A stretch of 32,050 nucleotides of DNA from Candidatus Peribacteraceae bacterium (GTDB taxonomy: Bacteria > Patescibacteriota > Gracilibacteria > Peribacterales > Peribacteraceae). The position numbers and the translations under genes are program-made. Positions 15,537 to 27,674 of the stretch are shown here, piece after piece. Each line of letters begins with the position of its first letter. The first letter of the stretch is position 1. The stretch spans positions 1 to 32,050 of the forward strand of contig JAQTSK010000016.1 of assembly GCA_028711345.1 (NCBI GenBank), in the 5' to 3' direction. The notes under the pieces were generated by a model, which saw nothing but the letters and a program-made list of their open reading frames with translations, was not told where the DNA came from and did no database searches.

Positions 15537-15621
15537 GCTCGTATTGTACTCATCCGACCTCACCGCGTCCACTCATTGCAGCCAAAAATGACAACTGAGA
15601 TTGTGACAATACGATAATACA

Positions 15622-15651
15622 TTGACACCCCCTCGCTCGGGATGGTAGGAT
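15622..15651 (+). promoter_or_regulatory. Candidate promoter TTGACA-N18-TAGGAT for the regulator/his cluster
   Basis: Hexamers read directly upstream of the YerC-like gene. Confidence 0.6.
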
Positions 15652-15759: not shown

Positions 15760-16113
15760 ATGTCCCGCAAATCCTACACCGAAGGCAACTACAGAACGGA
15801 CCCCTGGTTCAGGACTCTGTGCAAGGCTCTCGCAGCATGCGAAACCGAAGCCGACGTGGCGGCATTCCTCCGCGATGTCGCCACTCTTTCGGAATTGAAA
15901 GCGTTGAGCGAGCGGCTGGAAGTGGCGAAGAGAATCGATGCCGGCGAGACGTACCGGTCCATCATGGAAGCCACCGGTGCGTCGACGACGACCGTGACGC
16001 GCGTGGCACGGTTCACGCTGGACGGTGCAGGAGGCTACAAGCGCTTCCTGACCAAGAACCATCATCATACGACGCACGCCACACGCGGGAAGAGACCGAC
16101 GCCGACATCGTAG
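15760..16113 (+). CDS. TrpR-superfamily YerC/YecD (HisR-like) regulator
   Basis: FLRDVATLSELKALSERLEVAKRIDAGETYRSIMEATGASTTTVTRVARFTLDGAGGYKRF; directly upstream of hisG. Confidence 0.88.
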   Translation: MSRKSYTEGNYRTDPWFRTLCKALAACETEADVAAFLRDVATLSELKALSERLEVAKRIDAGETYRSIMEATGASTTTVTRVARFTLDGAGGYKRFLTKNHHHTTHATRGKRPTPTS

Positions 16114-16139
16114 AACACTCGAGACGATTCGACTTCACT

Positions 16140-16162
16140 CCCTCCCCGCCGGAGGGTTTTTT
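16140..16162 (+). terminator. Intrinsic terminator / attenuator candidate between regulator and hisG
   Basis: CCCTCC-CCGCC-GGAGGG followed by TTTTTT. Confidence 0.8.
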
Positions 16163-16182
16163 GTATTTTTCCCATTCTTCCC

Positions 16183-17073
16183 ATGGACATTGCTTCCTCA
16201 TCACCTTTCAACGGCAGCGGCTCGCTGCGCATCGCCATCCAGAAATCCGGAAGACTGTCGGAAGGATCGCTCGCGCTGCTCCGGCAGATCGGCCTCGAGT
16301 TCGAAACCTACCGCGACCGGCTCTTCACGCGCTGCCGGAACATGCCTGTGGACATCCTGTTCCTCAGGGATGATGACATACCGGAATACGTGCGGGACGG
16401 AGTAGCCGACCTCGGCATCGTCGGAAGTAACGTCCTCGACGAGTCGTCATCGCCCGTGAATCGTCTGCAGCTGCTCGATTTCGGTTACTGCTCGCTCTCC
16501 ATCGCCATACCGGACCAATCGCCGATCACCACGGTTCAGGACCTGGAAGGCAGGCGAATCGCAACGTCGTACCCAGCCACGCTGGCGCGCTTCCTCAAAG
16601 ATCAGGGAATATCCGCGGAATCGGTGCTTCTCAAAGGTTCGGTCGAAATCGCGCCCGCGCTGAAGATCGCGGATGCGGTCTGCGATCTGGTGTCCACGGG
16701 ATCGACCCTGCGGACAAACCGGCTCAAAATCCTCACGACACTCGCGAAATGTCAGGCGGTACTCATCGGTCGGGGAGAACCTGATCCGAAGAAGGAGGAT
16801 CTCGTCCGGAAACTGCTCCTGCGCGCTCGATCAGTTCAGGAAGCGAGGAGATACAAGTACATCATGTTCAACGCGCCGGAATCGGCGCTGGAATCGATTA
16901 AGAAGCTCGCCCCGGGATCCCGGAGCCCCACCGTCATGCCCCTTGCGGAACCCGGCTTCATCGCCGTGCACTCGATGGTGCTGGAAGAAGCGTTCTGGGA
17001 CGTCGTTGAACAAATCCGCGCCTGCGGCGGCAGCTCCATCCTCGTCACGCCCGTCGAAAAATTTGTGCGATGA
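16183..17073 (+). CDS. hisG: ATP phosphoribosyltransferase (long form)
   Basis: LRIAIQKSGRLSEGSLALLRQIGLEFE, DDIPEYVRDGVADLGIVGSNVLDE, VCDLVSTGSTLRTNRL, C-terminal regulatory domain ending ILVTPVEKFVR. Confidence 0.95.
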   Translation: MDIASSSPFNGSGSLRIAIQKSGRLSEGSLALLRQIGLEFETYRDRLFTRCRNMPVDILFLRDDDIPEYVRDGVADLGIVGSNVLDESSSPVNRLQLLDFGYCSLSIAIPDQSPITTVQDLEGRRIATSYPATLARFLKDQGISAESVLLKGSVEIAPALKIADAVCDLVSTGSTLRTNRLKILTTLAKCQAVLIGRGEPDPKKEDLVRKLLLRARSVQEARRYKYIMFNAPESALESIKKLAPGSRSPTVMPLAEPGFIAVHSMVLEEAFWDVVEQIRACGGSSILVTPVEKFVR

Positions 17074-19252: not shown

Positions 19253-21460
19253 TTGCCCTCTTGCCCTCCCATCGTCGGCATCCTCCAAACCGCCTCGTGC
19301 AACACGGGAAGCATCATGCGATCCCTCTCACGACTTGGCATCACTTCGGGAATCGTCCGGACCCGGGACGATATCGACGGCATCGACGGCCTGATCGTCC
19401 CCGGTGCCGGAGCGGCAAAAGCGGCGATGGATGATCTGCACAGCCGCAATCTGATCGATGTGCTTCGGTCGTTTAGGAAGCCGCTGCTGGGCCTCTGTCT
19501 CGGTATGCAACTGCTGTTCGATAATTCTGAAGAAGGGCCGACTGAGTGTCTCGGAATCATCCGTGGAACGGTGCGGGCATTGCCGGATAACGTGATCAAA
19601 CCGCACATGGGCTGGAACAGGCTTTCAACGGGTGAATATGCCTACTTCGTCCACAGCTTCGTCTGCGTACCGGACGATCCGCGCGTCATCACGATGACCG
19701 TGCGATACGGCGACGACCTCTGCGCAGGTGTGCGCTCCAAGAATTTCTTCGGCGTTCAGTGGCACCCGGAGAAGTCAGGGATTGCGGGTGATTCGCTGCT
19801 CCGATCGTTCGCGAAGCTATGCTCCGAACCCCGCCCCCCCTCCCCCGGCTGTGAGCCGGAGCCGCAGGCGACGGTGAACCCGGGGGAGGGGTCGGGGGAG
19901 GGGGCATTCCGAATCATTCCTGCAATCGACATCCTCGATGGAACAGTTGTGCGCCTCAAACAGGGTGACTTCGATCGCGTCACGTTATTCGAAACAGATC
20001 CGCTGGCGCTGGCAAAGAAGTTCGAAGCCGACGGCGCTCAGGCACTGCACCTCGTCAATCTGTGCGGAGCCAAATCCGGCCGGATCGATGATGCATTTAT
20101 CACTCTTGTGCGATCCATCGCATCCGAGACATCATTGTCCATTCAAGTCGGCGGCGGCATACGGACACTCAAAGACATTGCCCGCCTCCTCGATGCCGGC
20201 GCCGACAACGTGGTTCTCGGCACCGTCATTCTGACCGATCCCGGATTCCTCCGCGCTGCAATCGACCTCTTCGGTCAGAATCGGATTTTGGCTGCACTGG
20301 ATACGCTCGATGGCATCGTTCGCATCCGCGGCTGGCAGGAAACATCCGCGATACCGATTGATGATGCTTGTCGGTCAGTTCAAGCATCACGATGCAGCCG
20401 GATCCTCGTTACAGACATTGATAAGGACGGAATGGAGCGGGGCCCGAACGTGGAACTGTATCGGAAGCTCAGCAAATCTTTTCCGGAACTTTCGATCACC
20501 GCGAGCGGTGGCATTGGAACGCCGGACGATTGCAGAATCCTCGCTGATGCCGGATGTACCGGCGCAATTGTGGGAAAAGCGCTCGTGAGCGAAAAGCGAT
20601 CATTCAAGGAATTCTCTGCTTCATCAATCCGAATTATTTCTGATTCTATGCCGTCCGTTAGCTGCCGAATTAATTCGGCAGCTAACGGTATCAATACAAC
20701 CAAAACTCTCGCCATTCGCATCATTCCCTGTCTGGACATTGATAACGGCCGGGTGGTCAAAGGAACCGCCTTCCAAAACCTGCGCGATGCCGGTGATCCC
20801 ATCGAGCTTGCCAAGCGGTACTGCGCCGAGGGAGCCGATGAACTCGTCTTCCTCGACATCACGGCAACATCGGATAATCGCAAGACAATGATCGACCTGG
20901 TGTCACTCGTAGCAGATGCGGTGAATATTCCCTTCACGGTCGGCGGGGGCGTCAGATCCGTAAACGATGCCCGAGCGCTACTCAATGCCGGAGCGGATAA
21001 AGTCGCGGTCAATTCCGCAGCCGTCAGGAATCCGACGCTTCTCTCTGCAATGGCACAGAAACTGGGCAGCGCCAATACCGTCTGCGCGATTGACGCAAAA
21101 CGCAAAGGAACCTCCTGGGTTGTGCTGGTTCGTGGCGGCAGGGACGATACGGGCATCGATGCCATTGCGTGGGCGAAGAAAGCAGCCGAACGCGGTGCAG
21201 GAGAACTACTCGTCACCTCCTTCGACCGCGACGGCACCGGCGAAGGATTCGACGTCGAGCTCCTGAGCACAATCAAGCAGGTTGTGAAAGTCCCCGTCAT
21301 CGCATCCGGCGGAGGAAAGTCCCTCCGATCATTCGTGGATGCCGTGAAGATCGGCAGAGCGGATGCCGTCCTCGCCGCGAGCGTCTTCCACTTCGGAGCG
21401 CTCAGCATTGCCGATGTGAAAAATGCTTTATCCGCCGCTTCCTTCCCCATACGACCATGA
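19253..21460 (+). CDS. Trifunctional HisH-HisA-HisF fusion (IGP synthase glutaminase + ProFAR isomerase + IGP synthase cyclase)
   Basis: One ORF with no stops. HisH: GLCLGMQLLF and VQWHPEKS. HisA: RIIPAIDILDGTVVRLKQGD, VGGGIRTLKDIARLLDAGADNVVLGT, VTDIDKDGM. HisF: IRIIPCLDIDNGRVVKGTAFQNLRDAGDPIELAKRY, VGGGVRSVNDARALLNAGADKVAVNSAA, SFDRDGTGEGFD. Confidence 0.93.
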   Translation: MPSCPPIVGILQTASCNTGSIMRSLSRLGITSGIVRTRDDIDGIDGLIVPGAGAAKAAMDDLHSRNLIDVLRSFRKPLLGLCLGMQLLFDNSEEGPTECLGIIRGTVRALPDNVIKPHMGWNRLSTGEYAYFVHSFVCVPDDPRVITMTVRYGDDLCAGVRSKNFFGVQWHPEKSGIAGDSLLRSFAKLCSEPRPPSPGCEPEPQATVNPGEGSGEGAFRIIPAIDILDGTVVRLKQGDFDRVTLFETDPLALAKKFEADGAQALHLVNLCGAKSGRIDDAFITLVRSIASETSLSIQVGGGIRTLKDIARLLDAGADNVVLGTVILTDPGFLRAAIDLFGQNRILAALDTLDGIVRIRGWQETSAIPIDDACRSVQASRCSRILVTDIDKDGMERGPNVELYRKLSKSFPELSITASGGIGTPDDCRILADAGCTGAIVGKALVSEKRSFKEFSASSIRIISDSMPSVSCRINSAANGINTTKTLAIRIIPCLDIDNGRVVKGTAFQNLRDAGDPIELAKRYCAEGADELVFLDITATSDNRKTMIDLVSLVADAVNIPFTVGGGVRSVNDARALLNAGADKVAVNSAAVRNPTLLSAMAQKLGSANTVCAIDAKRKGTSWVVLVRGGRDDTGIDAIAWAKKAAERGAGELLVTSFDRDGTGEGFDVELLSTIKQVVKVPVIASGGGKSLRSFVDAVKIGRADAVLAASVFHFGALSIADVKNALSAASFPIRP
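19837..19891. repeat. Palindromic repeat element inside the HisH-HisA linker
   Basis: CCCCTCCCCCGG (19837-19848) and CCGGGGGAGGGG (19880-19891) are perfect 12-bp inverted arms; encodes the low-complexity linker PRPPSPGCEPEPQATVNPGEGSGEG. Confidence 0.85.
20655..20688. repeat. Perfect 34-bp palindrome inside the HisA-HisF linker
   Basis: CCGTTAGCTGCCGAATT|AATTCGGCAGCTAACGG. Confidence 0.97.
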
Positions 21461-23591: not shown

Positions 23592-23924
23592 ATGAACATG
23601 CTGAAGAAATCATTCATTGCCATGGCAATATTGTCTGCGGGAATAGTGATCGGTACTTTCGGCATCGGCGCCGGGTTCGGTAACATCGACTGCGGATGCG
23701 GCTGCTGCGGCGGGACCACGTTGGCGCTGAAACGCATGCGTCCGCGACTCTTCATCGTTGATACGCTTTCTCAGGATACGGGAGACCAATCATATGCCGG
23801 TAGCTGCATCTCTGCCGGCTGTTCTCTGCCTGTATTTCCAATCTACGTCGATCTCTATGCCCTGAGCCTTGCTCTGATTATTGCTTCTCCGTTTTGCTCT
23901 CACCGTGTACCCCGTCTTGTGTAG
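23592..23924 (+). CDS. Small Cys-rich protein with N-terminal hydrophobic segment
   Basis: SFIAMAILSAGIVIGTFGIGAGFGNIDCGCGCCGGTT; C-rich leader as for other genes here; 3' end overlaps the YerC2 gene. Confidence 0.4.
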   Translation: MNMLKKSFIAMAILSAGIVIGTFGIGAGFGNIDCGCGCCGGTTLALKRMRPRLFIVDTLSQDTGDQSYAGSCISAGCSLPVFPIYVDLYALSLALIIASPFCSHRVPRLV

Positions 23925-24333
23925 CTCTCTCCAGATACTTCTGCAGAACGGATATCGGCTTCTTCACCTCTCCACTGCTCTTCATCTCCGTTTGTTGTTG
24001 CTCCTGCGACGAAGACACCATCCGATGATGCCGATGCGCATTGAGCACTTTGCGGTACCCACCCTCGCCGTTCTCGAGAAACTTAGCCACCCGCGTAACT
24101 GTTGTGGTGGATGCTCCTGTATTCACCGCGATGTCGCGATACTTCTTCCCCTGCGCCAGCTGCTTGGCGACCTCAAACCGCTCGCTCCACGCCTGCAGCT
24201 CGGACAGCGTGCCGATGTCGCGAAGAAAGTTCTCCATGTCCTGATCCGTTCCGCATGAACGGAATGCGGCTACCAAAGCCTTGAACCACGGTTCTTTCCG
24301 CCAGCTGTCATCGGTGAAGCGTCGTTTGGCCAT
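23878..24333 (-). CDS. Second TrpR-superfamily YerC/HisR-like regulator with C-terminal extension
   Basis: FLRDIGTLSELQAWSERFEVAKQLAQGKKYRDIAVNTGASTTTVTRVAKFLENGEGGYRKVL, parallel to the protein at 15760. Confidence 0.85.
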   Translation of the reverse strand: MAKRRFTDDSWRKEPWFKALVAAFRSCGTDQDMENFLRDIGTLSELQAWSERFEVAKQLAQGKKYRDIAVNTGASTTTVTRVAKFLENGEGGYRKVLNAHRHHRMVSSSQEQQQTEMKSSGEVKKPISVLQKYLERATQDGVHGESKTEKQ

Positions 24334-24456: not shown

Positions 24457-25539
24457 TTACACATCGGCCATGACCCCACGTACCGCCGAGAGTACACGTT
24501 TCACATCCTTCCGAGAAGGAACAGCGGTCATGATGAGGTTTTCCGGAACACCGGGGCAAATCGCAAGCGACTTCATCGCGATCTTCCACTCCAGCATCTT
24601 CCTCCGGAATTCCGCCGCAGGCATCGGAGTTGAGAAGATGGTGAACGGGGTGTAGGTCGGTCGGATGACAATTCCCGGAATACGGCCAAGATCCTTCTCA
24701 AATGCCTTCTTGCGTGCCATGAACGATGCCACGAACTTCTTCCCTGCAGGCAGATTGCGCATGATCGCCTCCCCTGCCGCCAGTGCCAGCCGGTTGACCT
24801 CGAACACCTGCGTGGCCCCCTGCGAATTGTCGAGGAGCCGGATGATCTCCTCGCACGCGTACAACGCACCCAGACGGAGACCGGAAATGCCGTAGCTCTT
24901 GGAGAAGCCGCGCATCACGATCAGATTCTTGTACTTCTTCAGAAGAGAAACGGCAGTGACGCCGGAAAAATCCACGTACTCTTCATCCAAAACCAGAATC
25001 CCCTTAAACCGCTTCAGGATGGTCTCGATCTGCGGAAGGGCGAGTAGAAGATTTCCGATGGGATAGTTGGGGTTGGCGATGAAGATCAGCTTTGCCATCG
25101 GCGTGATCGCCTCCATGAACCTATCCAAATTCAACGAGAAATCCGGCTCCAACGGCACTTCGATTACTTTTCCGCCCATGAACTTCACGGCATCCGCGTA
25201 GCATGGATACGTCGGCAACGTGAGCAGCGTGTCGTTCCCTACATCGATAAACGTCCGCGCGACAAGATCGATGAGCGCATCCACACCGCTGCCAAGGAAT
25301 ACGTTCTTTGTGGTTAATCCGTACTGCCGGGCCATCAGCCAGCGTACACGATCAATCGTTGCGATTTCAGGATACTGATTGACCAGAGGAAGCTCCTTCC
25401 GAAGGACTCGCAGAATAGGTGGAAATACTCGAGGCGCTCCGGGGAACTGCAATGAAAGGACATCAGGAGGCAAAGGGTGGCCCCACTGAATGCCGGTAAG
25501 AACGCGGACAGGAATCCGAACGAGGGAGGTAGGATCCAT
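24457..25539 (-). CDS. hisC: Histidinol-phosphate aminotransferase
   Basis: NVFLGSGVDALIDLVARTF, PTYPCYADAVKFMGGKVIEVPL, IFIANPNYPIGNLL, VLDEEYVDFSG, VMRGFSKSYGISGLRLGALYA. Confidence 0.93.
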   Translation of the reverse strand: MDPTSLVRIPVRVLTGIQWGHPLPPDVLSLQFPGAPRVFPPILRVLRKELPLVNQYPEIATIDRVRWLMARQYGLTTKNVFLGSGVDALIDLVARTFIDVGNDTLLTLPTYPCYADAVKFMGGKVIEVPLEPDFSLNLDRFMEAITPMAKLIFIANPNYPIGNLLLALPQIETILKRFKGILVLDEEYVDFSGVTAVSLLKKYKNLIVMRGFSKSYGISGLRLGALYACEEIIRLLDNSQGATQVFEVNRLALAAGEAIMRNLPAGKKFVASFMARKKAFEKDLGRIPGIVIRPTYTPFTIFSTPMPAAEFRRKMLEWKIAMKSLAICPGVPENLIMTAVPSRKDVKRVLSAVRGVMADV

Positions 25540-25820: not shown

Positions 25821-27674
25821 TTACATCGTCGGAAGAGGCGCCAGAATCTTGCATTCCAAACTGCAGGATCCGGACGGACCGTTCGCGCTGCCGCGATCAC
25901 ACTGCTCACCCCAGTTCGGCCGGTCGTCCCTCCCGTCCTCGATGATCCCGTTGCCGCAGGTCACGGGCAACGGTGAACTGTGCAAACCTGCATTGGCTAC
26001 CAAATTGGCGTCGTTTGCTGCCAGCGCGCCGTTCGCGTCCGCATCGGTGGTGCAGATCTTCCATTCCGGGAACGGCAGGAACGGCTCAATGCTCATTCCC
26101 AGCGTTTGCTGGTTAATAAGGTGCGCATCGGCACCGCTCAGAATCTTGGTACCATCCACGTCACCGAGCATGACGGGGAGGGGCGTTCCCGCATGCTGTG
26201 CGGCACAACGGGCGACGTAGTAATCTGCGACAGTGAGGGTCGGGACAACATCCGTTTTTCCGCGCTGGACATCCGCGAACGGCAGATCCGCATCGGGAAG
26301 CAGCGCGATGCCGTTGATGTGCTTCTCGATCAGTTGGTAGTCGGTCGTATCGATGTCACCGTCGTTGTCCACGTCACCGAGAGCGCGCTCCTTCTGACAG
26401 ACAGCGCTGCATCCGTCGCCGTCCACGATGTTGCTGTCGTCACACTGCTCACCCCAGTTCGGCCGGTCGTCCCTCCCGTCCTCGATGATCCCGTTGCCGC
26501 AGGTCACGGGCAACGGTGAACTGTGCAAACCTGCATTGGCTACCAAATTGGCGTCGTTTGCTGCCAGCGCGCCGTTCGCGTCCGCATCGGTGGTGCAGAT
26601 CTTCCATTCCGGGAACGGCAGGAACGGCTCAATGCTCATTCCCAGCGTTTGCTGGTTAATAAGGTGCGCATCGGCACCGCTCAGAATCTTGGTACCATCC
26701 ACGTCACCGAGCATGACGGGGAGGGGCGTTCCCGCATGCTGTGCGGCACAACGGGCGACGTAGTAATCTGCGACAGTGAGGGTCGGGACAACATCCGTTT
26801 TTCCGCGCTGGACATCCGCGAACGGCAGATCCGCATCGGGAAGCAGCGCGATGCCGTTGATGTGCTTCTCGATCAGTTGGTAGTCGGTCGTATCGATGTC
26901 ACCGTCGTTGTCCACGTCACCGAGAGCGCGCTCCTTCTGACAGACAGCGCTGCATCCGTCGCCGTCCACGATGTTGCTGTCATCGCATGTTTCGCCTTCC
27001 TGAACGATTTCGTCACCGCACCAGGTGAGGTTCCGGACTGTCAACACCGCATCGGCGGGATTGTCCCCTTCCCTGTTCTCTTCGACGATGATCAGGTACC
27101 GCGCTTCGGCAACCAACGGAACATCGCTCAGAGAGACGAAAGAAGCTCCTCTCTCCCGCATCCCATCGACGAATGCCTGATCCGCAAGCTTCGCATCGGA
27201 AGCGAAAAACACTCCGGGGAAGAGGTAGTCATACATGAACGGTTGCCCCTGATTATTGAGCATTTCCAGACTCCTCGTCCGCTCCAGAGCCGCATCCTTC
27301 GACTCATACTTATACCCGTACAGTCTCTTGCCCGTCGTCAGTGCTTTGACAAGAGAGGCACCTTGCGAGAATCCTCCGTCGGCAACCGGCGTCAGGACGA
27401 AAGTCAGATCACCCACGGTGAATGATTCGGACTGTTCACCGTTATCGAACGTCATTTCCATGACCCTTTTACCGCCGACTGTCCCCAGTTCACTGACGGA
27501 ACCGCGGAAGGACGTCGTGCCTGCGGAGCCGAACGGAAGCGGGATCTCTCCGTCCCATGTCACTGATAAACGAGAGGAAGGCCGCAGCAAGACAACGATA
27601 ACGAAGCCGAGCACTGCGATACCCGTCCACATCAACAGCCAACGATGACTGTGTAAAAAAGAAGAGAACGTCAT
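25821..27674 (-). CDS. Membrane-anchored surface protein with dockerin-like and Cys-rich (CGNGIIEDG...C) repeats
   Basis: N-terminal TM WLLMWTGIAVLGFVIVVLL; LGDVDNDGDIDTTDYQLIEKHING dockerin-type calcium motif; CGNGIIEDGRDD...GEQCDDSNIVDGDGCSAVC repeat. Confidence 0.85.
   Translation of the reverse strand: MTFSSFLHSHRWLLMWTGIAVLGFVIVVLLRPSSRLSVTWDGEIPLPFGSAGTTSFRGSVSELGTVGGKRVMEMTFDNGEQSESFTVGDLTFVLTPVADGGFSQGASLVKALTTGKRLYGYKYESKDAALERTRSLEMLNNQGQPFMYDYLFPGVFFASDAKLADQAFVDGMRERGASFVSLSDVPLVAEARYLIIVEENREGDNPADAVLTVRNLTWCGDEIVQEGETCDDSNIVDGDGCSAVCQKERALGDVDNDGDIDTTDYQLIEKHINGIALLPDADLPFADVQRGKTDVVPTLTVADYYVARCAAQHAGTPLPVMLGDVDGTKILSGADAHLINQQTLGMSIEPFLPFPEWKICTTDADANGALAANDANLVANAGLHSSPLPVTCGNGIIEDGRDDRPNWGEQCDDSNIVDGDGCSAVCQKERALGDVDNDGDIDTTDYQLIEKHINGIALLPDADLPFADVQRGKTDVVPTLTVADYYVARCAAQHAGTPLPVMLGDVDGTKILSGADAHLINQQTLGMSIEPFLPFPEWKICTTDADANGALAANDANLVANAGLHSSPLPVTCGNGIIEDGRDDRPNWGEQCDRGSANGPSGSCSLECKILAPLPTM
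25897..26981. repeat. Exact-looking tandem duplication (period 543 bp) inside the dockerin gene
   Basis: 25897-26438 matches 26440-26981; shadow ORFs at 25980 and 26523 have identical translations across the unit. Confidence 0.95.

Follow-up and report, generated by a model that had tools for sequence, protein, structure and literature searches.

A TrpR-family repressor gene of Peribacteraceae probably doubles as the leader peptide of a histidine attenuator

The window, a 32,050-nt stretch of DNA, comes from a tiny uncultured bacterium of the Peribacteraceae (Patescibacteria/CPR) with a 1.77-Mb genome, and harbors a cluster of histidine genes preceded by yerC (hisR). The YerC product scored 66.9 bits against TIGR02531 (cut-off, 42.2), which identifies it as a HisR/YerC protein with a TrpR-family domain. 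A gap of 69 nt separates yerC from hisG, which is followed by hisD, hisB, a HisH-HisA-HisF fusion, and hisIE (Table 1). In this apparent triple fusion, HisH, HisA, and HisF are consecutive within a single 735-aa ORF (19253-21460). A second HisR paralog lies immediately 3′ of hisC (23881-24333 and 24457-25539, both on the minus strand); it carries an HRHHR tail and lacks a terminator. Further along, a minus-strand ORF (25821-27674) contains a long, near-identical internal duplication of dockerin-like and Cys-rich segments.

Table 1. Features of the yerC-hisG region, in window coordinates
Feature	Position	Strand	Basis
Candidate HisR operator TGTGACA-N6-TAATACA, abutting the -35 hexamer	15602-15621	+	Sequence; inference
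Promoter-like site TTGACA-18 nt-TAGGAT, TG before the second hexamer	15622-15651	+	10/12 matches; consensus match only
yerC/hisR, TrpR-family repressor ORF (117 aa); 3′ end, putative leader-peptide coding part	15760-16113	+	Pfam Trp_repressor, 7e-18; TIGR02531, above cut-off
His codons, CAT x3 (16060-16068) and CAC (16075-16077); proposed stall site	16060-16077	+	Sequence; enriched at like arm distance in 31/32 relatives
Antiterminator 5′ arm, inside codons R-G-K-R-P-T-P	16085-16105	+	Alignment A1; 15/19 pairs retained in the window
yerC stop codon TAG, within the antiterminator loop (16106-16128)	16111-16113	+	Sequence and alignment
Antiterminator 3′ arm, overlapping the terminator left arm	16129-16149	+	Alignment
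Intrinsic terminator CCCTCC-CCGCC-GGAGGG-TTTTTT; stem 16140-16156, U tract 16157-16162	16140-16162	+	Sequence scan
hisG, first gene after the attenuator	16183-17073	+	TIGR00070 and other NCBIfam models

A scan for promoter-like sites found none between yerC and hisG, the best nearby match being the one upstream of yerC. The half-sites of the adjoining candidate operator are spaced as in the HisR consensus TTTAnnnnnnTAAA (PMC9413887), and HisR binding is known to be stimulated by histidine (PMC9413887). Palindromes of the form TGTTTTA-N6-TAAAACA or TGTATTAATACA, followed by a TTGACA -35 box, also occur upstream of many relatives of the gene and of several short His leaders. These motifs suggest that HisR may repress its own promoter.

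The first-pass annotation had described four His codons in the tail of the yerC ORF, an intrinsic terminator ahead of hisG, and pairing of GCGGG (16085-16089) with CCCGC (16145-16149). All of these were recovered. The ORF ends K-N-H-H-H-T-T-H-A-T-R-G-K-R-P-T-P-T-S-stop, the terminator was found by scan where it had been placed, and pairing of the two complementary pentamers makes up the five outermost base pairs of a conserved helix that extends further. Given the codon usage of the window, the chance of a three-His run within the 33-codon tail is ~2e-4; terminator-like sites numbered three in the scanned region, with 2.3 expected by chance. RNA folding, which had been proposed as a check, was no better for the single sequence (16040-16175) than for shuffles (z = 0.21). 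The single-sequence fold is uninformative; significance rests on comparison, i.e., on the His profile, covariation, and a synonymous-codon null.

A search of 74 genomes of the family plus GTDB genomes yielded 72 YerC sequences; the 3′ end was intact in 69. In 32 of these 69 orthologs (group T), a His cluster and the stop codon are followed by a terminator ~11 to 29 nt past the stop; three members (L091, L100, and L107) were assigned by eye because a simple terminator scan missed them or scored them low. Most group T yerC genes are followed by a histidine gene, namely hisG, hisI, or a gene for divergent HisG, in some cases with a HisE fusion; the other neighbors code for a radical SAM protein, a methyltransferase, or a racemase-like protein. 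Orthologs outside group T are devoid of the terminator, mostly bear a protein-level HRHHR motif, and usually lie upstream of ribD. The same-genus relative G001 has only a ribD-linked paralog of this kind, also without terminator. Since some HisR paralogs have HRHHR yet no terminator, some of the His residues have a function in the protein itself. At L041, L120, L075, L005, L220, L218, and L225, genes for divergent HisG (some with HisE), radical SAM, racemase-like, and SLOG cluster4 proteins lie behind the putative HisR attenuators, which suggests that these are loci for histidine-derived metabolites.

We searched the last 26 codons of each group T gene for the best duplex with the left arm of the terminator, extended by 12 nt, without giving the program a target location. 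In 32 out of 32 genes this duplex fell on the same codons, R-G-E-R-x-A-S, downstream of the His run, forming an antiterminator of 15 to 22 bp, the loop of which contains the stop codon. Pairing was well above that of random synonymous codons (mean z, -2.96; combined Z, -16.8 for the 32 genes), whereas 48 other genes with a terminator past the stop, used as control, gave a combined Z of +1.1. In a plain MAFFT alignment of these sequences, which are related to one another, 90.8% of the cells paired (44 to 53% in slid controls) and 14 of the 19 pairs displayed compensatory changes on both sides, a figure matched by 0 of 500 shuffles. RNAalifold predicted the same helix unprompted. The mRNA leaders can thus form mutually exclusive antiterminator and terminator structures that have an arm in common and are conserved by covariation. 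Conservation of the His codons and the hairpin in relatives had been set as a check on the original proposal; both are kept, with compensatory changes in the terminator and the alternative helix. The window helix is the weakest of the 32 (-10.9 kcal/mol; p = 0.13 in the synonymous-codon test), so switching of this particular copy is less certain.

Placement of the His codons was profiled relative to the antiterminator 5′ arm, anchored by hand at the R-G-E-R codons; the duplex test had found this arm independently. In the four positions from -8 to -5 ahead of the arm, 71 of 128 codons specify His; the count drops to 2 of 32 at -4 and to 0 of 403 past the arm, the background being 0.33%. Enrichment before the arm was evident in 31 of the 32 group T genes. 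The run moves with the RNA arm (SD of its position, 2.0 codons) rather than with the protein core (SD, 7.9 codons), and the residues that flank it vary freely. At 5 to 8 codons of distance, the arm would emerge just outside a ribosome stalled on His. The codons used at the predicted stall site are CAU and CAC in a 69:15 ratio, compared with 105:80 in the downstream genes of the same loci.

The effect of ribosome position was assessed by a partition-function calculation with a footprint of -17 to +14 nt, which describes equilibrium only and ignores kinetics and NusA/NusG. The median probability of the terminator, P(terminator), was 0.05 with the ribosome on the His codons versus 0.885 with the ribosome at the stop, and the predicted direction of the switch was observed in 28 of 29 genes (p = 6e-9); L113, L097, and L104 showed little predicted switching. 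A codon-by-codon ribosome scan placed the minimum of P(terminator) exactly over the His positions. Antitermination was predicted to be best with the ribosome at -9 to -5 and was gone from -4 on, where the His codons cease and P(terminator) rises sharply. The outcome for the window copy depends on the upstream RNA included in the fold, P(terminator) at the first His being 0.30 in a short context and ~0.96 in a longer one. According to the model, ribosome position selects the RNA structure, with a weak effect in the window. The stall-versus-stop switch envisaged by the first-pass annotation is thus backed by computation across the relatives, albeit with an antiterminator of ~20 bp instead of 5 and with the window copy as its weakest instance.

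A covariance model (R1) built from the 32 group T sequences matched 50 of the 74 family genomes at E ≤ 0.01, including loci outside yerC. Opposite-strand matches and the low scorers L165, L166, L168-L174, L191, L192, L194, and L196 were not counted, as they lack leader codons or resemble GC-rich repeats. Short separate His ORFs, e.g., NRHHHAASLREERTASDVL or VFRTFSSHRHAHHHSHTREERMASVDLQF, precede hisG-type genes (hisG/hisI), and unrelated short ORFs bear the same HHH...REERTAS arrangement. Helix covariation holds on the mixed set of yerC and short leaders. Occurrence of the same RNA in short ORFs outside yerC marks the R-G-E-R-M-A-S ending of YerC as an RNA signature. The class also comprises Tyr-codon leaders (L160, L159, L158, and L148), with AYYTVPSSEERTATVA ahead of a prephenate dehydrogenase (tyrA-like) gene, and a Thr leader (L167) with a run of eight Thr codons ahead of thrS. 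In genome G070, the gene order is HisR, short leader, hisG. As the leader is thus a short ORF of its own in some relatives, its fusion or separation is traceable in evolution.

We extended the survey to 380 genomes of the rest of the phylum. YerC genes of other Patescibacteria families end in, e.g., KNHHHNLSPYGKRLG or VVHHHKSASSGKRVT and have a terminator behind them; the duplex test gave a Z of -8.2, and switching was predicted in 23 of 25 cases. Among the 31 downstream genes scanned in these families were six hisG genes, one HisS-like, one HisI, and one histidine-racemase-like gene. Mapped on the YerC tree, the trait requires ~23 changes, at least 7 of them forced by well-supported branches. 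In L197, L198, and L203, HisR has the core motif HWLHHG and a terminator, the next gene is hisG or hisS, and the arm pairs with GGY-coding bases; the ribosome might stall at these His codons of the core. The three loci were kept apart because their His codons may be conserved for the protein and lie very near the arm.

The sequences hold the parts of an attenuator, which are conserved, covary, and are energetically able to switch. From them we infer stalling, termination, repression, and a histidine response in living cells, as follows. A single transcript would start at the HisR-controlled promoter and run through yerC. When charged tRNA-His is scarce, the ribosome translating yerC would stall at the C-terminal His codons, leaving the next codons (R-G-E/K-R...) bare to pair with the terminator left arm, so that RNA polymerase would continue into hisG. 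When histidine is ample, the ribosome would reach the stop codon in the helix loop and block the helix; the terminator would then form, and the repressor alone would be made. We estimate at roughly 87% the probability that the 3′ end of yerC/hisR carries a ribosome-dependent transcription attenuator and that the ORF serves as both DNA-binding regulator and leader peptide. The conserved helix, the His placement, the computed switch, and the sister leaders all point to HisR, a predicted DNA-binding repressor, doubling as the attenuator leader. The initial suggestion that the regulator ORF could act as leader peptide was therefore largely right.

The hairpin could instead be a plain yerC terminator and the His-rich C terminus a protein feature involved in metal, ligand, or DNA contact, as conservation of HRHHR in the terminator-less paralogs, mostly upstream of ribD, would allow. 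This reading is very improbable. It does not account for pairing above the synonymous-codon expectation with compensatory changes, which ordinary genes near terminators do not show, for His codons that follow the RNA arm and not the protein core, or for HHH...REERTAS in unrelated short ORFs; the promoter scan ahead of hisG also speaks against it. Sensing of the stall through an arrest peptide in nascent HisR, or through binding of HisR to its own RNA, in place of tRNA-His charging is harder still to credit. Full-length SecM, MifM, and VemP do control downstream genes by C-terminal arrest (PMC7897499). However, the stall residue matches the downstream gene (His, Tyr before the tyrA-like gene, and Thr before thrS), and the surroundings of the His run are free to vary.

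Of more weight, although still unlikely, is that the attenuator operates in the family and the window copy is degenerating, weak, or constitutive. The low rank of its helix and the high P(terminator) in the longer context agree with such decay. On the other hand, the pairs retained in the window include A-U and G-C replacements that are rare elsewhere, and the four His codons, the terminator, and the order relative to hisG are intact. The covariance model also detected the window copy at E = 4.6e-13 against its own genome, a value obtained with this copy among the 32 sequences used to build the model.

In Escherichia coli, the TrpR repressor gene and the trpL leader peptide of trp control are separate loci. 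The arrangement described here likewise combines a repressor and an attenuator on one amino acid operon, and differs in that both reside in one gene. A similar layout is that of the proteobacterial his operon attenuator (Rfam RF00514), with which it shares the His codon run, ribosome stalling, the choice between antiterminator and terminator, and a first his gene behind them. However, RF00514 systems use a short dedicated leader peptide, whereas here a TrpR-family repressor of 117 aa would supply the leader from the 3′ end of its gene, and no covariance-model match at gathering score was obtained with RF00514 or any other Rfam family. A short leader without other role is typical of attenuators, though not required; it is absent here, where the leader is a yerC ORF with a Trp_repressor domain, and short forms exist in relatives. 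HisR (YerC) of PMC9413887 is similarly a TrpR-family protein beside his genes, and the candidate operator with similar half-site spacing lies here at its own promoter. In the Firmicutes covered by PMC9413887, His-leader attenuators were reported in lineages without HisR, whereas here the two controls are found in one gene. SecM, MifM, and VemP (PMC7897499) resemble this system in that the state of translation at the C terminus of a longer ORF controls the gene behind it. They are arrest peptides, whereas here the signal would be codon starvation and the output transcription termination. Ribosome-mediated attenuation and HisR are already known. Their union in one ORF, a variant of leader-peptide attenuation, was not found in the searched papers, and the open-access literature searched gave no precedent for a repressor ORF as leader.

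Ribosome-dependent attenuators for His, Tyr, and Thr probably form a family that extends across Patescibacteria and was repeatedly incorporated into the 3′-terminal region of a gene for a DNA-binding repressor. A single gene would then monitor the free amino acid through its protein and the charged tRNA through its message. Such a union of repressor and leader would be previously undescribed. ORFs for leader peptides are usually regarded as disposable; the one considered here would at the same time encode a functional repressor. Two classical histidine controls would thereby sit in one gene, a compact logic for reduced genomes. The RNA class provides a testable signature for amino acid specificity. 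Collectively, these findings suggest general use of coupled transcription-translation attenuation in a phylum whose gene regulation has been little studied.
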